Positions 46,083 through 58,699 of a stretch of 64,000 bases of DNA are shown here, in pieces. The position numbers and the translations under genes are program-made. Location: the NCBI GenBank assembly GCA_014584695.1, contig JACTMI010000027.1, positions 1 through 64,000 on the forward strand, given 5' to 3'. Source of the stretch: Acidobacteriota bacterium. Lineage in GTDB: Bacteria > Acidobacteriota > Thermoanaerobaculia > Multivoradales > JAGPDF01. Within the stretch, counting starts at the first letter, position 1; every line of letters begins with the position of its first letter. The notes under the pieces were generated by a model. The model had not been told where the DNA came from and ran no database searches. It saw nothing but the letters and a program-made list of their open reading frames with translations.

Positions 46083-46141
46083 CTCGATTCCACGCTAGCC
46101 GTGGATCGGTGATTCGTCAACGCCCGCGTCACGAGCGACAA

Positions 46142-46160
46142 GCGCCAGCCGATTCGCGGC
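46142..46160 (+). repeat. REP-like element, forward (CGCCAGCCGATTCGCGGC)
   Basis: Single copy in the gap between higB and the VWA lipoprotein-like gene. GCCG-ATTCG-CGGC can form a short hairpin. Core matches the family GGTGCCAGCCGA with G to C at one position. Confidence 0.75.
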
Positions 46161-46241
46161 AGCAGGGTGAGCCGGCGAAGCTCCGCCACCCCGTGCTCGG
46201 GCTCTGATAGGTTGCCGCCTTCACTACGTGGAGGCGGGAGC

Positions 46242-47663
46242 ATGCACCGCACGACGATCTCGATCGCGCTGGGAGCCCACCTCGTCCTGGCCGCCGCCGG
46301 GCCGGCGCCCGCCGGCCAGGAACCGAAACCGCTCGTGCTGGTCTTCGACGCCTCGGGCTCGATGTGGGGTGACGTCGGCGGCGAGGCGAAGATCGTGGCC
46401 GCGCGGCGCGTGGTCGGCGAGCTCGGCGAACGGCTGGCCGACGGCACGCCGCTCTCGCTCGTCGCCTACGGCCACCGGCGCGACGGGGACTGCGGTGACA
46501 TCGAAACGCTGCTGCCGACCGCACGGCTCGACCGCGCGGCGCTAGGTCGGGCGCTCCAGGCGTTGAGCCCCAAGGGGAAGACGCCGATCACCGCCGCGCT
46601 GACGCAGGCGTTTCGCGAGGCTCCCGCCGGCTCGACCGTGGTCCTGGTCACCGACGGGCTCGAAACCTGCGGCGGCGACCCGTGCGCGGCCGTCCGCGAA
46701 GCGAGAGCGAAGGGCGGCGAGCTGGTCCTGCACGTCGTCGGCTTCGACGTCGCCCTGCAGGACGTCTCCTCGCTCGAGTGCGCGGCGCAGGCCGGAGGCG
46801 GCCTCTACCTGCCCGCGGCCGACGCCGGCGAGCTCGCGGCAGCCCTGGGCGCGGCGGTCGCGCGCCCGGCCGACGCTCTGGCGGGCTCCCTGGTCGTCCG
46901 GGCGACGCGCAACGGCGCCCTGCAGGACATCTCCGTCCGGGTCGAGCCGCTCGCCGACGGCATCGCGGTCGCGGCACGGACCTACGCCAGCGCCGAGACC
47001 AATCCGCGGACGATCCCGCTCGCGGACGGACGCTACCGGCTTCGGGTGCGCGCCGTCGGCATCGACGGCGCCGCCGAGCGCGAGGAAGTGGTCGAAATCG
47101 CGAACGGTGCGCGCGTGGAGCGCGCCTACGACTACTCGACCGGCGCGGTCTCGATCGGCGCCACCCGCAACGGCGCCCTCTCCGACGTCACCTGGCAGCT
47201 GTTCGCCCCGGGCGACCGGAAGCGCGCCGTGGCGACAGGTCGCACATACCGGACGGCGAGCTCGAACCCGGCGCGGGCGACGCTGCCGGCGGGCACCTAC
47301 GATCTCGTGCTCACCGCGCTCGAGATCTCCGGTCGGCCGACCTGGGAGAGCCACGGAATCGAAGTCGAGCCGAACGGCACGGCGCGGGTCGCGCGCGAGT
47401 TCGCCTCGGGCGAGCTCGCCGTCGAGGTCGTGCGCGGCTCGACCCTGGTCGACGCCACGGTCGCCGTCCGCGCCGGCGACAAGGGGATCGACCAAGGGCG
47501 CACCTACAAGGCGGCGAGCTCGAACCCGATCCGCTTCCAGCTCGAGCCGGGCGACTACGAAATCGAGGTCGCCGAGATCCGCGGCGCGAAACGGAAGCTC
47601 AGCGTTTCCGTGGCAGCCGGAGTCGTCGAGAGCCGTCGTGTGGACCTCGACACGACACCCTGA
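46242..47663 (+). CDS. Secreted VWA-domain protein with three Ig-like repeats
   Basis: 473 residues with a signal peptide (MHRTTISIALGAHLVLAAAG, cleavage near APAGQE). The VWA domain (~residues 28-205) has LVFDASGSMWGDVGG (MIDAS), GKTPITAALTQAF and VLVTDGLETCGG. Three ~85-residue beta modules follow, each with a variant of RTY-x-(S/T)ASSNPxR and LPAGTYDL (e.g. ATGRTYRTASSNPARATLPA). It resembles Ca-activated-chloride-channel-like or PEGA-type surface proteins. ATG at 46242 with GAGGCGGGAG upstream. Role unknown; extracellular or periplasmic. Confidence 0.85.
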   Translation: MHRTTISIALGAHLVLAAAGPAPAGQEPKPLVLVFDASGSMWGDVGGEAKIVAARRVVGELGERLADGTPLSLVAYGHRRDGDCGDIETLLPTARLDRAALGRALQALSPKGKTPITAALTQAFREAPAGSTVVLVTDGLETCGGDPCAAVREARAKGGELVLHVVGFDVALQDVSSLECAAQAGGGLYLPAADAGELAAALGAAVARPADALAGSLVVRATRNGALQDISVRVEPLADGIAVAARTYASAETNPRTIPLADGRYRLRVRAVGIDGAAEREEVVEIANGARVERAYDYSTGAVSIGATRNGALSDVTWQLFAPGDRKRAVATGRTYRTASSNPARATLPAGTYDLVLTALEISGRPTWESHGIEVEPNGTARVAREFASGELAVEVVRGSTLVDATVAVRAGDKGIDQGRTYKAASSNPIRFQLEPGDYEIEVAEIRGAKRKLSVSVAAGVVESRRVDLDTTP

Positions 47664-47690
47664 GCGATCGGGCTCGGAACGTGCCGGAGA

Positions 47691-47774
47691 AGTGCCAGCC
47701 GATTCGCGGCAGTAAGGTGGGCTCTCGAGCGATCGCCGGCTGGGGGCACCTGGGCAGCGACTCGGCTGGCACCT
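47691..47774. repeat. Inverted pair of REP-like elements
   Basis: Forward copy AAGTGCCAGCCGATTCGC (47690-47707) and reverse copy GCGACTCGGCTGGCACCT (47757-47774). The arms are complementary at 16 of 18 positions around a ~50-nt loop. It lies between two convergent genes, so it might also act as a terminator-like hairpin. Confidence 0.85.
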
Positions 47775-47817
47775 CCCCCACCTTCCGCACCTGCCCCGGA
47801 ACCGCGCGGGGCCTGAA

Positions 47818-48051
47818 TCAGGGGGGCCCCTGGCCCTCCGCCGGGGGCGTCCGCCTGACATTGGCGTGGTCCATGTCCGAGCGGATCAGCCAGCGGCCAG
47901 TGGCCTCCCGGACCAGGGTCAGGGTGAACTTGCCGTCGTCGGGTGCGCCCGGGGCGCTGGCGCAGCCGGCGAGGATGTAGCCGACGTCGCCGGCGAGGCC
48001 GAGGCAGGCAGCGACGAGCGCGAGCCTGCGACCGAACGCGCGATCCATCAT
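47818..48051 (-). CDS. Short lipoprotein with a DUF4440/SnoaL-like tail, probably truncated
   Basis: 77 residues from ATG at 48051 (a second ATG follows at once), preceded by AAAGGAG. The N terminus is a lipoprotein signal ending in ILAGCASAP. The remainder, DDGKFTLTLVREATGRWLI plus RSDMDHAN, matches only the last strand of DUF4440/SnoaL-like domains. The first three quarters of that fold are missing, so this looks like an internally deleted gene. Whether it is still expressed is unknown. Confidence 0.5.
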   Translation of the reverse strand: MMDRAFGRRLALVAACLGLAGDVGYILAGCASAPGAPDDGKFTLTLVREATGRWLIRSDMDHANVRRTPPAEGQGPP

Positions 48052-48282
48052 GGCGGCTCCTTTCAGGCAACCGGGTCCAGCCGCCGTGGCGAGCGCGGCC
48101 GCGCCGAGGAAAGGCGGGCGGCGCTTGACCCGATTGCGCGTCTCTGGTGGACTACCTGTCGTTAGCTCCGGGGCGCCGCGTTCGCGGCGTTCGCCCGCCG
48201 TCGAGAGGCGCTGCAGCGGATCGACCTCCGTCACGCTCGACGCCGGTTCGGAGAATCAGGGCGCCTTCGAAGAGGTGACCCG

Positions 48283-49014
48283 ATGGTGGATTCTCGGAAC
48301 GGCAGGCAGGTCGGTCGCGTCGTCGGACTCTATCGCTACCCCGTGAAGTCGATGGCGGGCGAGCCGCTGACCGAAGTCGAGGCGTCCTGGCACGGCTTCG
48401 CCGGCGACCGGCGCTGGGCGTTCGTGCGCCCGGACGTGGTCCGGAGCGGATTCCCCTGGCTCACGCTGCGCGAGCGCGGAGCGATGAGCCACTACCGACC
48501 CTCCTTCACCGAGGCCGCGCGGCCCGACACCTCGCCGACCGTCGTCCGGACGCCGTCGGGCGCCCTCCTCGACGTGACCGAGCCGGCGCTCGCCGCGGAG
48601 CTCGGACCCGACGGCACGCAGGTGATCCGGCAGAGCCGCGGGATCTTCGACACCTTCCCCCTGTCGCTCGTCACGACGCAGACGATCCACCGCCTCGGCG
48701 AGCTCGTCGGCCGCCGGCTCGAGGTCCAGCGCTTCCGGCCCAACCTCCTGGTCGAAGCCGCGGCGGAGGAGCCCTTCGCCGAGGATGATTGGATCGGGAG
48801 CGTGCTCCGCGTGGGCGGGCTCCGGCTGCGCGTCGACAAGCGCGACGGCCGGTGCGTCGTGATCACCATCGATCCCGCGTCGACCGAGCGCGACCCTGCG
48901 ATCCTGCGCGCGGTCGCCGAAGTGCGCCAGGGCTGCCTCGGCGTCTACGGCTCGACCGTCGAGCCCGGCCGCGTCGCGCTCGGCGACCCAGTCGTCGTCG
49001 AGGCCGGGCCATGA
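48283..49014 (+). CDS. MOSC-domain protein
   Basis: 243 residues. An N-terminal MOSC beta-barrel (VVGLYRYPVKSMAGEPLTEV, GFAGDRRWAFV) is followed by the MOSC domain (FRPNLLVEA, DGRCVVITIDPAST, QGCLGVYGSTVEPGRVALGD). MOSC proteins bind molybdenum cofactor sulfide and act in sulfur transfer or reduction of N-hydroxylated compounds. The conserved cysteine is present in RCVVIT. ATG at 48283 with AGAGGTGACC upstream. No molybdopterin genes are nearby. Confidence 0.87.
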   Translation: MVDSRNGRQVGRVVGLYRYPVKSMAGEPLTEVEASWHGFAGDRRWAFVRPDVVRSGFPWLTLRERGAMSHYRPSFTEAARPDTSPTVVRTPSGALLDVTEPALAAELGPDGTQVIRQSRGIFDTFPLSLVTTQTIHRLGELVGRRLEVQRFRPNLLVEAAAEEPFAEDDWIGSVLRVGGLRLRVDKRDGRCVVITIDPASTERDPAILRAVAEVRQGCLGVYGSTVEPGRVALGDPVVVEAGP

Positions 49015-49020
49015 GCCGCG

Positions 49021-49037
49021 CAGGTGCCAGCCGATTC
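49021..49037 (+). repeat. REP-like element, forward
   Basis: CAGGTGCCAGCCGATTC begins 6 bp after the MOSC stop codon. It continues TCAGCGGC, so GCCG and CGGC can pair as a small hairpin. Confidence 0.75.
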
Positions 49038-49099
49038 TCAGCGGCTCTGGCGCGGTGCGGGGGGGTGCGCTCCAGGCCCGCCGACGGACTCCGTGCGGG

Positions 49100-49615
49100 T
49101 CACCTGCTCATGCGGGCGCGGCTCTCCCGGGCGAGCCAGGCGACGAAGGCCGCCAGGGGCACGGACCAGCCGTCGGGGGCGCTGAGGTCCGCCTCCCACT
49201 CGCCCTGCGCCTGGGCGTCGAACGGGCGCCCGACGAGCCGCCCGCGCTCCTGGCCCGACTCTTCGAGCCGGAAGCTGCTGCCATGGCGATCCTCTGGAAC
49301 CAGCTTCAGAATCCTGCCCGCGACGTCCAGCTCGAACTCCACCAAGAAGTGCTGATTCAGCGGCTGATCGGCCTCGAAGGCGTGCATCCGACGGTGCCGA
49401 GTCGCGGTCGCCAGCACCTGGTTATCCGCGCAGAGCTGGTAGCGATGGCCGTTCCACGGCGCTGGGAGCTTGAGCTGGTAGTCGAGCCCACCGACTCGTC
49501 CCCGCAGGTTGTAGACGAAGAAGTTGACCTTGCGGAAGACCGCCACCTCCTGACCGCCCTCGCCGACCCGCAACTCTTGGGGGCGTTGCCTCCGGCCGTC
49601 CGTTTGATAGTCCAC
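49100..49615 (-). CDS. Hypothetical protein, 171 aa
   Basis: GTG at 49615 (VDYQTDGRRQRPQEL) has GGGAGG seven bases upstream. The sequence has beta-rich stretches (AVFRKVNFFVYNLRGRVGGL, LDYQLKLPAPWNGHRYQLCA) and an ordered C terminus (PLAAFVAWLARESRARMSR). Coding bias and the strong ribosome site support a real gene. I do not recognise the family. No signal peptide or membrane segment is seen. REP-like elements flank it at 49.02 and 49.76 kb. Confidence 0.6.
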   Translation of the reverse strand: MDYQTDGRRQRPQELRVGEGGQEVAVFRKVNFFVYNLRGRVGGLDYQLKLPAPWNGHRYQLCADNQVLATATRHRRMHAFEADQPLNQHFLVEFELDVAGRILKLVPEDRHGSSFRLEESGQERGRLVGRPFDAQAQGEWEADLSAPDGWSVPLAAFVAWLARESRARMSR

Positions 49616-49760
49616 CTGGCGCCCTCCCTCTCTCGCGCCGGCCTCACCCCGAGTCGCGCGAGTCGATGTTCGAACGACAAGGCCGAGGGTACCAGACCAA
49701 CGGAGGCTCGGAGCTTTCAGAAAGGTACCGGGCCGGACAGGTATCGGACAGCTGCCGGAC

Positions 49761-49946
49761 AGATGCCAGCCGATTCGCGGCCCGCGTCGGACAGCTGCTG
49801 CACAGGTGCGCTGCACAGGTGCCAGCCGATTCGCGGCCCGCGGCGGACAGCTGCTGCACGGGTGCCAGCCGACTTGCTGCGGCGCGCTGGCCGCGCGCCG
49901 GACCCGCTGGCGGGCCGGGACGGCGAGCGCAACTCGGCTGGCACCC
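49761..49946. repeat. Compound cluster of four REP-like elements
   Basis: Forward copies start near 49763, 49818 and 49861, and a reverse copy (CAACTCGGCTGGCACCC) at 49930-49946. The first two sit in a ~55-57-bp tandem unit that also contains GGACAGCTGCTGCAC. The cluster fills most of the 513-bp gap from 49616 to 50128. That gap otherwise shows only a 32-codon reading frame (50014-50112), which I do not count as a gene. Confidence 0.85.
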
Positions 49947-50128
49947 GTCCCGCCGGCCCGGCTGAACCAGGCTGCATCTCCAGCGCAGGCCGTGGGCTAT
50001 CCTCGGCCTCGCGATGGAGGTCCTGCCGGTCCTGCGCGTCCTGACGCTGCGGGCGCGAGCCGACGACTACGAGCGGCTCAGGACCGCGCTCCGTCCGAAC
50101 GGGGGCGGATAGAATTCCCTCGACCACC

Positions 50129-50472
50129 ATGCGCCGCGTGACCGAGAGCGAACCGATCGCCGTCGAGGAGCTGCGCGCGCGCGTAGGCGGTTCGGCGAGA
50201 TGGTCAAGGGTCCGGTCGACCTGCGGCGGGCCATCCTCCTCCTCGATGCCGATCTGCACGCGGACCAGGAGGCGGAGTTGCTCGCCGACGGCTCCCAGCA
50301 GTCGGATCTGTGGGGAATCGACCTCTATCCCGACTTGCCCGGCGACGACTGGCTCGAGTTCGATTCGATGATCAACCTCCGGCCGTCGTTCGGCAACCGC
50401 TCGCGAGGAGTCGATGACCCGGGCACGCGCGAGGCGATCGCCGCGCTGGTCGGTCGTCTGGTGCGGCGATGA
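50129..50472 (+). pseudogene. DUF5674 gene split by a 2-nt frameshift in a (CG)n tract
   Basis: The N-terminal part from ATG 50129 reads MRRVTESEPIAVEELRAR. The rest is in another frame: RFGEMVKGPVDLRRAILLLD, then LWGIDLYPDLPGDDWLEFDS and NLRPSFGNRSRGVDDPGTRE, all characteristic of DUF5674. The switch falls in the alternating GC tract 50173-50183; removing one CG unit restores a continuous, family-like protein. It could be a real lesion, slippage-based variation or an assembly error. A shortened product from ATG 50200 is possible. Confidence 0.7.
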
Positions 50473-50804
50473 GCGCCGGGCATCGCGACCTCGCCGCCGG
50501 CCGCTGGTTCGAACTCTCGCACGTCGAGCAGTTGGGCAATGTCGGCAGCGAGGTCGGCCGCGCGGTGCGGCGGTCCCGCAGCAACCCGGCGCTCTCGGAA
50601 AGAGCCTGTCATCGGGCGCGCGAGCTGCTCGACCTCACCCTCGACGACCCGCGGCACCGCCGTTCGGTCGCCCGCTTGCGGGAGATCGCCAGGGCGCGCG
50701 AGGTCGTGGCGGACTTCCTCGCCGGAGAGAACCGCTATGGGACCACCACCGAGTCCCTGCAGAAGTACTTCGACGCTTTCGCCTTCGCCGCGCGCCGCCG
50801 CTGA
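50469..50804 (+). CDS. Conserved hypothetical protein linked to DUF5674
   Basis: 111 residues, mainly helical (ERACHRARELLDLTLDD, RSVARLREIARAREVVADFL). It begins MSAGHRDLAAGRWFELSHVE and ends with a K-Y-F-D-A-F-A-F-A-A-R motif. As I recall, proteins of this shape occur next to DUF5674 in other genomes. ATG overlaps the DUF5674 stop as ATGA, so the two were translated together. The HEPN-like helical look suggests a toxin-antitoxin or RNA-related pair, but no RxxxxH motif is clear. Confidence 0.65.
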   Translation: MSAGHRDLAAGRWFELSHVEQLGNVGSEVGRAVRRSRSNPALSERACHRARELLDLTLDDPRHRRSVARLREIARAREVVADFLAGENRYGTTTESLQKYFDAFAFAARRR

Positions 50805-50818
50805 CGCCGCTCCCGTTC

Positions 50819-50837
50819 AGGTGCCAGCCGATTCGCG
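50819..50837 (+). repeat. REP-like element, forward
   Basis: AGGTGCCAGCCGATTCGCG, 14 bp after the stop of the hypothetical gene and before the convergent DUF2723 gene. Confidence 0.8.
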
Positions 50838-50920
50838 GGGAGTCGCATCTCGCGCCTCACTCCCCCTCCTCGCCTTGCCGCCACTCCGGTGGGCCCCAGA
50901 ACCACCGCAGTATCTGCAAG

Positions 50921-52837
50921 TCAGGGAACGAGGTAGCCCCACGGGGAGTCGAGCCACCGCCCCCAGCTGAACGGGCGCCGGTCCCGTTCGAGCTCGACGA
51001 CATGACGGCCCGCTTCGAGCTCGACCGCCGGATAGGCGTAGTCGACCTGAAAGCTCGCCGCCTCGACGCCGTCGACCAGGACGATCCAGCGGTCCCGCAG
51101 CGACTCCTGGAGCACCATCCACCCCCCGCCGGGCGCGACACTCACATCGACGAGAAACCGGTCGGGCGCGACCTCGACGCGGTCGACGGTGCCGCCGCCC
51201 CCGCGCCGCTCTCGACCGCCGACGACCAGCGCGGCGCGCAGGGGGTCGAACGCCGGGTCGAGCAGCCGCGCGAGGGCGCGATCGACCGGCCCGGCCGGCT
51301 CGAGTCGCTCGGCGAGGAAAGCCAGCGGCGGCGGAATCGCGCCCGCGATGGCGAGCCGCGGCAGCAGGCTCCCCGGCCGACCCTCGAGGCGAAAGCCGAG
51401 CGCCGACAAGCGCGCCCGCGCCTCCTCGCCCGGGTCAACGAGGAAGAGCGGCGCGCCGGGCGCGAGCGCCCGGTCGTGGGGCGGGAGGCGGAGCGGCGCG
51501 ACCTCCGCCAGGTGGCGCGCCACCGGTCCGAGCAGAAACGGGGCGTCGAGCGCCGCTTCCGGGACGAGGAGCAGGCCGACACCGGGCGCGCCGGGCGGCT
51601 GCGCCCGCAACAGCTCGAAGGTGAGACCCCGCTCGTGTCCGAAGACGACCAGCGCCGAACCGTGCGGCGCTTCAGCGAGAGCCGCAAGGGCGAAGATCTC
51701 CCGCTGGCGTGCCGTCTCAGCGGGCTCGATTGGCGCCGACGCGAGCAGCGGCAGCAACGCCAGGCCGGGCAGGATGAGCGCCGGCATCGCCGCTCCCGTC
51801 CCCCGAGCGATGGCTCCCGCCGCAAGCTCGACGAGCGGCGTCGCGGCGAGCGCGAGGGCCACGAACGGCGCAAGCAAGTAGGCCTCGAAGTCGGTCACGT
51901 CGTAGAGCAGCAGGAAGAGCGCCGAAGCGGCCAGAAAGCCGATGAGAGCTCGGCGCGCCCCGCCGCGCGCGCAGCCGAGCCCCACCAACCCGGCGGGCAG
52001 CAGCCACCATCCTCCCGCGAGGGCTGAGCCCGCGAGCTGCGGGATGCGCTCACGCAGCAGCTCGGCGGGACCGGCGCGGGCCAGGTTCCCTCGGAACGAC
52101 CCGCCAGTCGCCACGTCGGTGAGCTGCGCCACGCTCTGGGCGCGTGCCTCGAGGTAAGCGGCCTCCTCCGTGTAACTCCGTTCGATCAGATAGAGGTAGG
52201 GAACTGTCGCGAGCAGCAGCGCTCCCGCGAGCGTCGCAAGTCTCCCCCAGGTCCGGCCGGGCAGTGGCCGGCCGGCGAGTGCGGCGACGAGAGCCGGCAC
52301 CAGACAAATCGCCGTCGCGTGGTGGGCGAAGGCGGCGCCGGCGCCGAGCGCGGCGACGGCCAGCGGCGCGCTCCGCCCGCTGCGAGCGTACGCGCAGAGC
52401 CCGCCGAGCACGACCGCGACGAAGAGGACGTGCAGTGGATACACCTCGGCGACCGCCGCGGCGCCGCGCACCGCCGGCGCCGTGCCGAAGGCGAGGGCGG
52501 CCGCGAGCGCCACGCTCGGCCGGGCCCCGAGCGCCCGCGCTCCCGCTGCGACGGCTGCCGCCGCGAGCGCCACTAGCACCGCCGAGAGTCGATTGGTCAC
52601 CGCCGGCCAGCTCCAACCTGGCGCCATGCGGGCCGCCGCGTGCGAGATCAGGGTGTACAGCGGGTAGCCCGTCGGGTGCGCGGTGCCGAGAGCCGGCCCG
52701 ACGAGCTGGAACTTCGCCACGTCCCCCTGCCCGGCGTGCGGGCCGGCCGAGGGCAAGTAAGAGACCAGGAAGAGCAACAACGCGACGCCGAGCGGGAGCC
52801 AGCGTGCCGCGCGCCCCGGCATTCGGATCAACGCCAT
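50921..52837 (-). CDS. DUF2723 polytopic membrane protein (protein O-mannosyltransferase-like)
   Basis: 638 residues. The loop after the first membrane helix reads GDVAKFQLVGPALGTAHPTG, with the acidic residue typical of DUF2723 GT-C enzymes, followed by YPLYTLISHAAARMAPGWSW. About ten transmembrane helices fill residues ~10-410. The last ~230 residues are soluble and beta-rich (FLVDVSVAPGGGWMVLQESL, YPAVELEAGRHVVELERDRR). It should use a lipid-linked sugar donor on the periplasmic side. ATG at 52837; a second in-frame ATG lies five codons later. Confidence 0.82.
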   Translation of the reverse strand: MALIRMPGRAARWLPLGVALLLFLVSYLPSAGPHAGQGDVAKFQLVGPALGTAHPTGYPLYTLISHAAARMAPGWSWPAVTNRLSAVLVALAAAAVAAGARALGARPSVALAAALAFGTAPAVRGAAAVAEVYPLHVLFVAVVLGGLCAYARSGRSAPLAVAALGAGAAFAHHATAICLVPALVAALAGRPLPGRTWGRLATLAGALLLATVPYLYLIERSYTEEAAYLEARAQSVAQLTDVATGGSFRGNLARAGPAELLRERIPQLAGSALAGGWWLLPAGLVGLGCARGGARRALIGFLAASALFLLLYDVTDFEAYLLAPFVALALAATPLVELAAGAIARGTGAAMPALILPGLALLPLLASAPIEPAETARQREIFALAALAEAPHGSALVVFGHERGLTFELLRAQPPGAPGVGLLLVPEAALDAPFLLGPVARHLAEVAPLRLPPHDRALAPGAPLFLVDPGEEARARLSALGFRLEGRPGSLLPRLAIAGAIPPPLAFLAERLEPAGPVDRALARLLDPAFDPLRAALVVGGRERRGGGGTVDRVEVAPDRFLVDVSVAPGGGWMVLQESLRDRWIVLVDGVEAASFQVDYAYPAVELEAGRHVVELERDRRPFSWGRWLDSPWGYLVP

Positions 52838-53157
52838 CTGAGGCGTCGCTCGAGGCTGGCGCCGGGCAGGACCGGCAAGAGCGGCCGCCCAAGTGCGGGG
52901 GCGCGGGAAATCGCTCTCCCAGCTTGCTCGGAGGCGAGGGCCGCGGCGGCTTCGGCCCCAGTGGGAATGCAAACCGACCGGATGGCGATGATCTCCTCTC
53001 GGGTTCCTTACAAGTCTATGCTCCCCAGGCGTTTGACCGGCCGCGCGCGCACGGGATTCGGCTGGCACCTTGGCGGGTGACTCGGGTGGCACCTGGTCAT
53101 CAGGCTGGGCCCAGCCGGAGGTCGGCGTAGAATCCCCCACCGATCCGGAGGGCCGGC
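52838..53157. other. Gene-free interval before the expansin gene
   Basis: 320 bp between divergent genes. Apart from two reverse REP-like copies (53053-53094) I see no coding frame with family resemblance and no convincing promoter pair. An AT-richer patch (TTCCTTACAAGTCTATGCT, near 53005-53025) might hold a -10 element. Confidence 0.5.
53053..53094 (-). repeat. Two tandem REP-like elements, reverse
   Basis: GATTCGGCTGGCACCT near 53055-53070 and GACTCGGGTGGCACCT at 53079-53094, same orientation, 24 bp apart, in the gap upstream of the expansin gene. Confidence 0.8.
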
Positions 53158-55053: not shown

Positions 55054-55071
55054 AGGTGCCAGCCGAGTTGT
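55054..55071 (+). repeat. REP-like element upstream of the RAYT gene, forward
   Basis: AAGGTGCCAGCCGAGTTG ends 30 bp before the RAYT start codon. A partial copy (AAGGTGCTGCACC) precedes it at 55038-55050. This is the GAGTTG subtype, like the reverse copy that follows the RAYT. Confidence 0.85.
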
Positions 55072-55101
55072 GAGAGTCTGGCGGTGCGAAATCCGTCTCT
55101 G

Positions 55102-56031
55102 ATGGATATGCCGCGTCGCCTGCGCTTCATTCCGCCCGAGTCGCTGGTCGAGGTCACCTGCCGCACCGTGCAGGGGCGGCTCCTATTGCGACCCTCGCCT
55201 GTCCTTCGCGATTTGACGCTCGGCGTCCTCTCTCGAGCAGCCCGGCTCTACCCGGTCGAGCTCCACGCCTTTGCCTTCTTGTCCAACCACTTCCACCTGC
55301 TGGTGACGGTTCCGGACGCCCAACGCCTGGCCCGGTTCATGAACTACTTGAACTCGAACCTCGCTCGCAAGGCGGGCCGACTGACTCGGTGGCGGGAGAA
55401 GTTCTGGGGTCGGAGGTACCAGGCGATTCTCGTCTCGAACGAGGCGGAATCTCAGATCGCCCGCCTCCGCTACATCCTCTCTCACGGCGTCAAAGAGGGG
55501 CTCGTCGCCTCCCCGCTCGACTGGCCCGGCGCCCACTGCGCGCGAGCTCTTCTCACTGGTGAACCACTCGAAGGCCGCTGGGTCGACCACACACTCCGCA
55601 GCGCCGCCCAGCGCAAGCGACTCAAGTCCGATTCAGGTTCCTTCTCCACGGTGGAGACCCTGTGGCTCGCGCCGCTGCCATGCTGGAAGGAACTCGCTGA
55701 GGGCGAGCGGCGCCACCGGCATCGCGAGATCGTCGAGGAGATCGAGCGAGAAGGGCGGTCCCGAGAGCTCAGAACGGGCCGGCCGCCGCTCGGCAGGGAA
55801 GTCCTACTCCGCCAGGACACCAGGCACGAGCCGAACCGGATCGACAAGGGCCCCGCTCCGCTCGCTCACGTCGCTTCGTCCGCCGCCAGGGACGCACTGC
55901 GGGTCGCGTATCGGACCTTCCTCGGCGCCTATCGCCAAGCCGCCGAGCGGTTGCGCTCCGGCGCGCTCGACGTGATCTTCCCCGAGGGTGCCTTTCCGCC
56001 GGCGATGCCCTTCCGGCCAGCTCCTCTTTAG
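55102..56031 (+). CDS. REP-associated tyrosine transposase (RAYT, Y1 HUH family)
   Basis: 309 residues. The TnpA_REP layout is clear: RRLRFIPPESLVEVTCRTVQ, the HUH metal site in AFAFLSNHFHLLVTVPDAQR, and RFMNYLNSNLARKAGRLTRW. That last stretch supplies the catalytic-tyrosine candidate of the Y1 helix and is followed by EKFWGRRYQAILVSNEAESQ. The C-terminal ~140 residues are basic and probably bind the element. Such domesticated single-copy transposases mobilise or maintain REP sequences in their own genome. ATG at 55102 or 55108. It is flanked by a forward repeat (55054) and an inverted one (56254). Confidence 0.88.
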   Translation: MDMPRRLRFIPPESLVEVTCRTVQGRLLLRPSPVLRDLTLGVLSRAARLYPVELHAFAFLSNHFHLLVTVPDAQRLARFMNYLNSNLARKAGRLTRWREKFWGRRYQAILVSNEAESQIARLRYILSHGVKEGLVASPLDWPGAHCARALLTGEPLEGRWVDHTLRSAAQRKRLKSDSGSFSTVETLWLAPLPCWKELAEGERRHRHREIVEEIEREGRSRELRTGRPPLGREVLLRQDTRHEPNRIDKGPAPLAHVASSAARDALRVAYRTFLGAYRQAAERLRSGALDVIFPEGAFPPAMPFRPAPL

Positions 56032-56253
56032 AGTCCGTCGGGTTCTCGGAGCCCATTTCACGGGCGTCTCGCAGAAGCATCCCAGGCGATCGCTCGCTCC
56101 ATCGAAAACCGCGGCGACCCGGCGCCTTGCTGCTCACCAGAAGAGAAACCGCATCGAGCCGGAGGTGCGCTTGACGGCCCCCTCGAGGAGCGACACCGAT
56201 GCCTTTGCCGGGCCCTCGGAGGTGCAGTCACTTCCCCGCAGGCACTGACCCCG

Positions 56254-56270
56254 GCAACTCGGCTGGCACC
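56254..56270 (-). repeat. REP-like element downstream of the RAYT gene, reverse
   Basis: GCAACTCGGCTGGCACC, the inverted partner of the copy at 55054. It abuts the TAG stop (56270-56272) of the FHA gene coming from the other side. Confidence 0.85.
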
Positions 56271-57001
56271 TATCTACCTCTGTGTCGGAAGGCGTCGCCT
56301 TCCGCGCGGAAGACCAGGACGGTGCGGCCGGCGCGCAGTTGGTCGCCGGGGCGTAGCTCCGCGTACCGGACCCTCGCGCCGTTCAGGTAGGTGCCGTTGC
56401 GGCTGTCGAGGTCGCGGAGGAAGAACTCGTCGCCGATCGCCTCGATCTGGCAGTGGCGGGCCGACACCGAACGGTCGCCCAGGTCGATATCTGCTTCCTC
56501 GCGGCCGATCACAACGAGCGCCGAAGGGAGTGCGAGACGCTCTTCGCCGGCCGGCGCGCCCACCCGCAGCAGGTAGCCCGCCCTCACCGGCGGCGGCAAG
56601 CGCGGCGGCTCGTCCGGGCGCGCGAGGGGCTGGGTGCCCGCCGGGCCGCCGGACGCACGCCCTCGAGAGCGTCGTTCCTCCGGCACCTCGAGCAGAGCCC
56701 GCGGCTGAAAAAGGGTGCCGTAGTCGACGGTATCCAAGGGGGCTGTCGAGGTGCCAGCCGAGTCGTCCGAGCTCAAGGTGCCAGCCGAGTTGTTCGACAA
56801 GGTGCTGTTCGACAAGGTGCCAGCCGAGTTGTTCGAGCTACTTGCGGTGCTGGGCGAGCCGGTCGCCGCCCCGAGTGCCGCCTCGCCGGTTCGCACCTGA
56901 ACCGCGAGCCCGCAAGCCGGGCACCTGAGCGCCCGGCCTGCGAGCGCCGCCGGCTCAGCGTCGAGCTCGGCGGCGCAATGAGGGCAGTGGAGCGGTATCA
57001 T
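56270..57001 (-). CDS. Zinc-ribbon and FHA-domain protein with REP-derived linker
   Basis: 243 residues. The N terminus is a zinc ribbon (MIPLHCPHCAAELD, then LRCPACGLAV). Residues ~55-90 are a Ser/Asn/Thr-rich linker (SSNNSAGTLSNSTLSN...) encoded by REP-like repeats. After a Pro-rich stretch, residues ~145-243 form an FHA domain (VVIGREEADIDLGD, VSARHCQIEAIGDEFFLRDL, SRNGTYLNGARV). It likely docks on phosphothreonine produced by the kinase gene that precedes it; the ATG at 57001 overlaps that gene's stop as ATGA. Confidence 0.88.
   Translation of the reverse strand: MIPLHCPHCAAELDAEPAALAGRALRCPACGLAVQVRTGEAALGAATGSPSTASSSNNSAGTLSNSTLSNNSAGTLSSDDSAGTSTAPLDTVDYGTLFQPRALLEVPEERRSRGRASGGPAGTQPLARPDEPPRLPPPVRAGYLLRVGAPAGEERLALPSALVVIGREEADIDLGDRSVSARHCQIEAIGDEFFLRDLDSRNGTYLNGARVRYAELRPGDQLRAGRTVLVFRAEGDAFRHRGR
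56750..56831 (+). repeat. Three REP-like copies inside the FHA coding sequence
   Basis: GGTGCCAGCCGAGT(C/T)G at 56750-56765, 56777-56792 and 56816-56831, plus a partial copy at 56801. Spacings of 27 and 39 bp are multiples of three. Read on the minus strand in the gene's frame, each copy encodes Ser-Ala-Gly-Thr preceded by Asn-Asn or Asp-Asp, so the gene stays open. Confidence 0.9.
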
Positions 57002-58617
57002 TCGGGGACCCACGACAGCTTGACCCGTTCAGAATACGGATTCAAGACGACCCGCAACGTGCGCCGCCCCCCGGCCTCGAACCGCCCGGCGATGGTCGCC
57101 GCGGCGTCGACCGCCATCGATCGCCCAACTACCCGCACCTCGATCTCGCGCAGGCCGGCTGGCACGGCGAACGTCTCGACCACTGGATCGCCGAACGTGC
57201 GGCGGATGGGGTTCCGGCTGGTGCGCAATTCCCGGCTCCAGACCGGCCGGCCGTCGACACGCACCGAGAGCGTCGCCTCGCCGAGCCGATTGCGATAGGC
57301 GAGGTCGAGCTGCGCCGTGCGCTGCGGAGTGGCAGCGGCAACGGAGGGCGCGACCGACTCGATCTCGCGCCCGCGCAGCGGTGGCGGCTCCTCCTCCCGG
57401 ACTTCGATCGACTCCCGCGCGGGCACCACGGTCGCAGTCTCTCCCGCCCCCGCGGTGGGCGCCGCGGCCGCACCTGCCGCGGCTCGCGGCCGCAGTGGCA
57501 CCAGCCCCGACTGTGCCCACCAGGCTCCGAGCGCTCCGGCCGCCACCAGGAACAGGCCGCCGGCGACTCGGCGGAAGAGGCGTCGGCGAGCCAGCGCCCG
57601 CCGCCGCGAGCGGAATCGCGACGCCCCGGCGCCGGTCGCGACCAGGCCCTCCTCCTCGAGCCTGAGAGTCGCCCCATGCGCCAGCGACGGGTCGCTCGGC
57701 GGGAGGACAGCGGCTCCCTCCGGCGAGATCGGCGACGCCGGTCTCTCGATCCCAGCCGACGCGTGCGCCGGACCGGCGAGCGAGTGCGCGACGGCTTCGA
57801 GCGCACCCGCCATCTCCTCGGCCGTGCCGTAGCGTTGCCCGGGGTTCTTGGCCATCGCCCGCGCGAGGACCTCGAGCAGCTCCTGCGGCAGACCGAGCGC
57901 CGTGTCGATCGGGCGGGGATCGACCTCGACCACCTTGAACGCCACCGTCACCAGCCCGTCGCCCGGGAACGGCAGCTCGCCGGTCAGCGCGCGGTAGAGC
58001 ACGCCGCCGAGCGAGAACAGGTCGGACCGGCCGTCGACCGCGAGACCGCGCACCTGCTCCGGGGACATGAAGAACGGGCTGCCGAGGACGCGGCCGGCGC
58101 GCGTCACGCCGAGACCCCCGAGCTTGGCGATGCCGAAATCGGCGATCTTGGCGGCGCCGTCGTCCGCGAGCAGGATGTTGGCCGGCTTGACGTCGCGATG
58201 CACGATGCCGCGCGCGTGGGCGTAGCCCAGCGCGCGCGCCACCCGGGCCGCCAGGTCGACCGCGAGCAGCGCCGGCAGCCGCCCCACTCGCCGCAACATT
58301 CCCTCGAGCGACTCGCCTTCGACCAGCTCCATGGCGAGGTACGGCAGCCCCGTGTCGGGATCCGTGCCGGCGTCGTGGACCGCCACGATGCCGGGATGCG
58401 CCAGCCGCCCCGCCGCGCGGGCTTCGAGCAGGAAACGCTGCCGCAGCTCCTCGGTCTCTTCGGGATCCTCGCCCGTGCCGGGCCACATCACCTTGAGGGC
58501 GACACGCCGCTCGAGGTTCGGATCGAGCGCGAGATACACCCGGCCCATCGCGCCGCGGCCGATCTCACCGACGACCCGGTAGCGGCCGATCCGTTCGGGC
58601 AGCGCCTCGGCCTTCAT
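56998..58617 (-). CDS. Transmembrane Ser/Thr protein kinase (PknB-like)
   Basis: 539 residues. Kinase domain ~11-280: GEIGRGAMGRVYLALDP (P-loop), ALKVMW (Lys), IVHRDVKPANILL (catalytic loop), KIADFGIAKL (DFG) and SPFFMSPEQVRGLAVDGRSD. A transmembrane helix (RVAGGLFLVAAGALGAWW) near ~350 separates it from a beta-rich outer domain (LDLAYRNRLGEATLSVRVDG, FAVPAGLREIEVRVVGR), perhaps a sensor. ATG at 58617 begins MKAEALPERIGRYRVVGEIG. It is coupled to the FHA gene as a likely writer-reader pair. Confidence 0.92.
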   Translation of the reverse strand: MKAEALPERIGRYRVVGEIGRGAMGRVYLALDPNLERRVALKVMWPGTGEDPEETEELRQRFLLEARAAGRLAHPGIVAVHDAGTDPDTGLPYLAMELVEGESLEGMLRRVGRLPALLAVDLAARVARALGYAHARGIVHRDVKPANILLADDGAAKIADFGIAKLGGLGVTRAGRVLGSPFFMSPEQVRGLAVDGRSDLFSLGGVLYRALTGELPFPGDGLVTVAFKVVEVDPRPIDTALGLPQELLEVLARAMAKNPGQRYGTAEEMAGALEAVAHSLAGPAHASAGIERPASPISPEGAAVLPPSDPSLAHGATLRLEEEGLVATGAGASRFRSRRRALARRRLFRRVAGGLFLVAAGALGAWWAQSGLVPLRPRAAAGAAAAPTAGAGETATVVPARESIEVREEEPPPLRGREIESVAPSVAAATPQRTAQLDLAYRNRLGEATLSVRVDGRPVWSRELRTSRNPIRRTFGDPVVETFAVPAGLREIEVRVVGRSMAVDAAATIAGRFEAGGRRTLRVVLNPYSERVKLSWVPE

Positions 58618-58699
58618 CGCGGCAGATGCTACCCGGATCCGTCGCCGCGCTACCGCCGCTGGTCCGGTCCGCACCGCTCCGGCGGCCGGGCGCTCGAGC

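Follow-up and report, generated by a model that had tools for sequence, protein, structure and literature searches.

The linker that joins zinc ribbon and FHA domain in a bacterial protein appears to derive from a transposase-end repeat that was inserted between the two domains, multiplied there in frame and has since been tolerated as coding sequence, a reading to which a probability of about 0.86 is assigned. The gene lies in 64,000 nucleotides of an Acidobacteriota contig (the window, meaning here that whole stretch). The host gene, its upstream neighbor and the array within it are the following.

56270 to 57001, minus strand: gene of the zinc-ribbon and FHA-domain protein, 243 aa from its ATG; its interdomain linker is the site of the repeat array
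56998 to 58674, minus strand: Ser/Thr protein kinase gene (Pfam Pkinase, E 5.4e-42), upstream of the FHA gene
About 56749 to 56839: in-frame repeat array, minus-strand product SSNNSAGTLSNSTLSNNSAGTLSSDDSAGTS, without counterpart in the orthologue L035
56800 to 56814, plus strand: truncated repeat copy AGGTGCTGTTCGACA, composed of AGGTGC plus TGTTCGACA, a structure that recurs in the repeat family

The FHA domain is recognized by the Pfam FHA model (E 1.5e-18), and the CxxC...CxxC pattern of the zinc ribbon is invariant across 11 homologues. Translation more likely starts from the ATG at 57001, which overlaps the stop codon of the upstream kinase gene, than from a GTG at 57013. In an AlphaFold2 model made from the 11-homologue alignment, residues 43-132 have pLDDT values mostly below 50 while the FHA domain exceeds 90; the low values are as expected for a flexible linker and are in keeping with the proposal, made in a first-pass annotation of this DNA, that such a linker joins the two domains. 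A model from four sequences (pLDDT 45) was discarded. Relatives of the FHA protein were also sought in viral contigs, and none were found.

The repeat is a 17 bp sequence, AGGTGCCAGCCGAGTTG, of which the FHA gene carries three full copies and one truncated copy. The full copies (AGGTGCCAGCCGAGT(T/C) in plus strand orientation) start at 56749, 56776 and 56815, and the truncated copy at 56800 is the 24-bp full unit less nine nucleotides, so that the array steps of 27, 24 and 15 bp, each a multiple of three, all keep the reading frame. The first-pass annotation had correctly described three copies and a partial one at spacings divisible by three, although the extent that it gave to the array, 56750-56831, is revised to about 56749-56839. 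Read on the minus strand in the frame of the gene, the array gives SSNNSAGTL-SNSTL-SNNSAGTLSSDDSAGTS, or copy by copy SSNNSAGTL, SNSTL, SNNSAGTL and SSDDSAGTS; the full copies encode (N/D)(N/D)SAGT, the peptide originally proposed for them, and the truncated copy SNSTL. The 14-mer core GGTGCCAGCCGAGT is far more abundant than chance allows both in the window (16 occurrences with up to two mismatches vs. 1.24 expected) and in the genome (52 with up to one mismatch vs. 3 for the reversed pattern). Examined locus by locus in the source genome, these 52 near-matches are dispersed and most of their contexts are non-coding.

The source of the repeat is indicated by a transposase unit that adjoins the FHA gene. 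This unit, and two other places in the window where the repeat is found, are listed here.

55054 to 56271: RAYT-like transposase unit with perfect 17-bp inverted repeats as its ends, adjoining the FHA gene
55102 to 56031, plus strand: RAYT-like Y1 (HUH) transposase, 309 aa (Pfam Y1_Tnp, E 4.2e-8)
55054 to 55070, plus strand: left terminal repeat AGGTGCCAGCCGAGTTG, 31 bp upstream of the transposase ATG
56255 to 56271, minus strand: right terminal repeat, a perfect inverted copy of the left
47690 to 47774: head-to-head repeat pair, hairpin-forming and REPIN-like
49761 to 49946: repeat copies in a cluster, some direct and others head-to-head

The best family match of the transposase is NCBIfam REP_Tyr_transpos (NF047646; E 3.1e-14), at 53 bits against a curated cut-off of 80. 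Five of the genome hits are the exact 17-mer: two lie in the FHA linker and three at transposase-unit ends (two in the window unit and one in a second unit on contig C9). Identity between the linker and the left end of the window unit extends to 19 nt. The linker copies therefore agree in sequence with the ends of the unit next door, from which the array is separated by 480 bp; the GATTCGC subtype is the largest group among the other genome copies. Similar transposase genes in the genomes of the family also have such repeats on both sides. At the other end of the host gene, the AG of its TAG stop codon (56272-56270) is formed by the first two bases of the right terminal repeat. The C-terminal sequence RHRGR is unlike that of the orthologue, and insertion of the transposase unit has thus probably altered the end of the protein as well.

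The description of these elements as REP-like stands insofar as they are dispersed and mostly extragenic, but they are not REPs as such. Formation of hairpins by single copies was rejected, since 32 of them folded with their flanks as DNA give a mean folding energy of -5.7, no better than the -6.8 of random genome 40-mers; head-to-head pairs at several genome loci do form long hairpins. The GTAG tetranucleotide tag is absent from the consensus AGGTGCCAGCCGATTCGC / GAGTTG. Given that single copies are non-palindromic, that the linker copies match the transposase ends, and that a Y1 transposase lies between inverted repeats of a dispersed family, the repeat is a TIR-type (TIRtron) repeat of a RAYT-like unit that behaves in REP-like fashion. 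The region 46100-53100 of the window holds a dense repeat cluster of several subtypes, with head-to-head pairs at 47690-47774 and 49860-49946. Three other genomes of the order (G028, G026 and G016) have more than 30 Y1 transposase matches each and few or no copies of the window repeat; their transposases probably go with other repeat subtypes.

Comparison with orthologues shows the FHA gene as it is without the array. The same-genus orthologue L035, from a MAG of Acidobacteria bacterium isolate ACD1 (G003), is 67% identical, retains both domains, and has APAPEPGAPRAGGERAG at the array position, leaving it about 32 residues shorter than the window protein, close to the ~35 that had been predicted for an ortholog free of the element. 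The same kinase gene lies upstream here too (L035 ORF 44-1333), and no transposase unit follows the FHA gene in L035. Of the ten other sequences in the eleven-homologue alignment, seven are without any linker at this position and the remaining three, all of one lineage, have a linker of unrelated sequence; the same linker specified by unrelated DNA, which would have spoken for an origin other than the repeat, is not among them. A close orthologue was also sought in the genomes G001 and G002 without a close match, leaving that of G003 as the only one in the collection. Because orthologous linkers vary freely, some of the length difference could predate the insertion.

The FHA gene is not an isolated case in its order, represented by 72 genomes in the collection, of which 15 (strict pattern) to 21 (looser pattern) have direct arrays of the repeat. 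In-frame intragenic arrays, flanked on either side by homologous protein in a single frame, are found in at least six further genes.

G037: NRPS adenylation domain, three 30-bp units reading GASRFGEGVP
G032: acyl-CoA synthetase, VPAT frame; its orthologue in G019 (L288) is shorter
G015: ABC-2 permease loop, KRLAPGND units of 24 bp
G033: FHA-sigma54 regulator, SAGT directly after its FHA domain
G003: tandem-domain protein, array between the two domain copies, VPADS frame
G045: replication-type protein, VPAAS frame

A clean gapped orthologue is available for three genes: FHA (L035), acyl-CoA synthetase (L288) and NRPS, whose same-genus orthologue (L152 in G045) reads GAKRRRVLGERRLVACVV across a clean 35-residue gap in place of the array. 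The homologues of the genes in G015, G033, G003 and G045 have variable linkers, so that a clean empty site is lacking for these four. The NRPS unit includes the host-gene flank GGGTCC, and amplification in that gene therefore came after insertion. The repeat core is free of stop codons in all six frames, and this, together with steps that are multiples of three, is why the FHA gene stayed open and its copies are predicted to be translated. The seven intragenic arrays use four of the six frames, never those that would bring in Cys (CQP) or Trp-His (GWH). All 13 intragenic spacings are divisible by three, vs. 34 of 94 in other arrays (Fisher p 8e-6), a p-value that is somewhat weakened and serves as a guide because arrays were called coding after their open frames had been seen; outside the window these calls were made on draft genomes, from homology and from codon statistics.

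Other candidates for intragenic copies were set aside. Apparent copies in five genes of the source genome, namely an RlmI-like methyltransferase (L099), a cytochrome-like protein (L101), heme A synthase (L102), a PTS-like protein (L003) and L100, were judged by eye to fit native conserved motifs, and so were most of the lone exact 14-mers found in relatives (FtsH L174, response regulator L212, kinase L207 and others). An array in G007 (L284, NSPGTF...NSAGTF) has weak coding support, apparently lies upstream of an opposite-strand gene, and was not counted. Nor was the linker of L235 (G019:C50), which shares too little with the repeat; its four EAGTF units, exact repeats of 15 bp, follow an AMP-ligase-type domain and resemble a minisatellite. 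The array gene of G045 (L220, minus strand, G045:C261) contains two more tandem-repeat stretches, RQTLVRQTSA... and DSAALDSAALD....

A recurrent feature of the repeat family is a copy broken at a fixed point. The fetched loci contain 192 distinct full cores. A truncated copy lies close upstream of 22 of these with a length of exactly six bases (AGGTGC), and of 11 with a length of seven, vs. rates at random places of about 0.6% and 0.5%, respectively. About one full repeat in six is preceded by such a copy, and the 5' flank has often been duplicated along with it. In the window, AGGTGC-truncated copies lie in the FHA linker (56800-56814) and just upstream of 55054. The pattern could possibly mark a candidate transposase nick after AGGTGC (AGGTGC|CAGCCGAGTTG), or else be a signature of slippage.

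These features can be joined in a simple sequence of events. A single terminal-repeat copy of the local RAYT-like unit would have landed, antisense to the gene, in the interdomain stretch, presumably by action of the transposase now found in the window. The stretch entered would have placed no demand on sequence, and the inserted frame could be read through. Slippage or tandem duplication may then have multiplied the copy in place, including one 15-bp truncated unit, and only steps of three would have survived, the outcome being a longer flexible linker of Ser, Asn, Gly and Thr. A broader form of this proposal, in which the transposase-end repeat is a recurrent source of linkers throughout the order, free of stops in every frame, entering loops and linkers and growing in frame-preserving steps with the AGGTGC break as nick site, is held only tentatively and is on balance doubtful.

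Whether the array owes anything to the transposase repeat at all may be asked, since short tandem repeats are frequent in linkers, as the EAGTF array of 15-bp units in L235 of G019 illustrates, and genes such as that of FtsH contain single 14-mer matches by chance. That the FHA linker is an ordinary in-gene minisatellite whose likeness to the repeat is due to chance or to shared composition is nevertheless highly improbable in the face of an exact match of 17-19 nt to the adjacent transposase ends, the presence of three copies, a family-specific sequence that is missing in the orthologue, and recurrence in six other genes. The array might instead be kept as DNA, as a putative transposase binding site or reservoir of ends for the neighboring unit, with its coding incidental. 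Its position 480 bp from a unit whose exact end sequence it carries, and the truncated AGGTGC copies that recur beside repeats, would suit such a role; that spacing preserves the frame in every intragenic array shows however that coding constraint matters, and makes this an improbable account.

The first-pass annotation had left undecided whether the copies were tolerated or put to use as protein sequence. Tolerance is the simpler reading, and use, in the sense of a linker kept by selection, for example to let the phosphopeptide-binding FHA domain reach further from the zinc ribbon, seems unlikely judged from the sequences. Two of the seven arrays do adjoin FHA domains, both reading SAGT, the peptides are hydrophilic and linker-like, and only four frames are used, with the Cys and Trp-His frames avoided; but purifying selection against bad frames would explain the choice of frame equally well, the close orthologue manages without the array, and the FHA-gene array is seen in one species only. 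An insert tolerated in a flexible loop, and not selected for function, would thus be the best reading of the linker.

On this reading of a tolerated insertion, mobile DNA is caught turning into protein sequence close to the event, in an uncultured lineage whose near relatives are insert-free. Seven arrays in four frames with steps of three together form a modest natural experiment in the kinds of inserted peptide that proteins tolerate, and the recurrent AGGTGC-ending copies offer a testable guess at the cut site of an uncharacterized branch of Y1 transposases. For annotators, such repeats are unreliable as markers of intergenic DNA.

The initial supposition that REPs are usually strictly extragenic is contradicted by Di Nocera et al. 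2013 (PMC3733652), who report many GTAG and CGTC REPs within ORFs, singly or as dimers or clusters, encoding up to 43-82 residues, and GTAG REPs that often provide the TAG stop codon of a neighboring gene. The Acidobacteriota repeat is likewise short, lies within ORFs and supplies part of a stop codon, and some of those REPs are likewise transposase-linked; but those REPs are palindromic, unlike the transposase end described here, which is non-palindromic and forms direct tandem arrays with frame-preserving steps in seven genes. The same paper also describes TIRtrons and TIRYTs, the latter being TIR-associated Y1 transposases of which one group is Acidobacterial. These share with the window unit a RAYT-like gene between terminal inverted repeats that are also dispersed as singles, dimers and clusters, whereas in-frame intragenic arrays are undescribed for them in the sections consulted. 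The GGGGWSAS motif given there for some TIRs is absent from the 17-bp repeat, and as it belongs to some TIRs only it is not required.

At several loci, hairpins arise from head-to-head pairs of the repeat, as in REPINs (Bertels and Rainey 2011, PMC3116915), but the intragenic copies are direct rather than inverted, and a palindromic core is lacking in the single copy. The classic in-frame mobile repeats are the Rickettsia palindromic elements (RPEs; PMC10969869), which also occur in many unrelated genes and add peptide segments to them, and in RPE-like fashion the gene persists, short of the inserted residues, in orthologues without the element (L035, L152, L288); RPEs are however about 150 bp and palindromic, in contrast to 17-33 bp units in tandem. 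Given the RPEs (PMC10969869) and the intragenic REPs of PMC3733652, the phenomenon is of a known kind. What appears to be new, as far as the literature surveyed shows, is the type of repeat, a non-palindromic transposase end in Acidobacteriota, together with frame-preserving direct arrays in seven genes, near relatives free of the insert, and the AGGTGC break signature.
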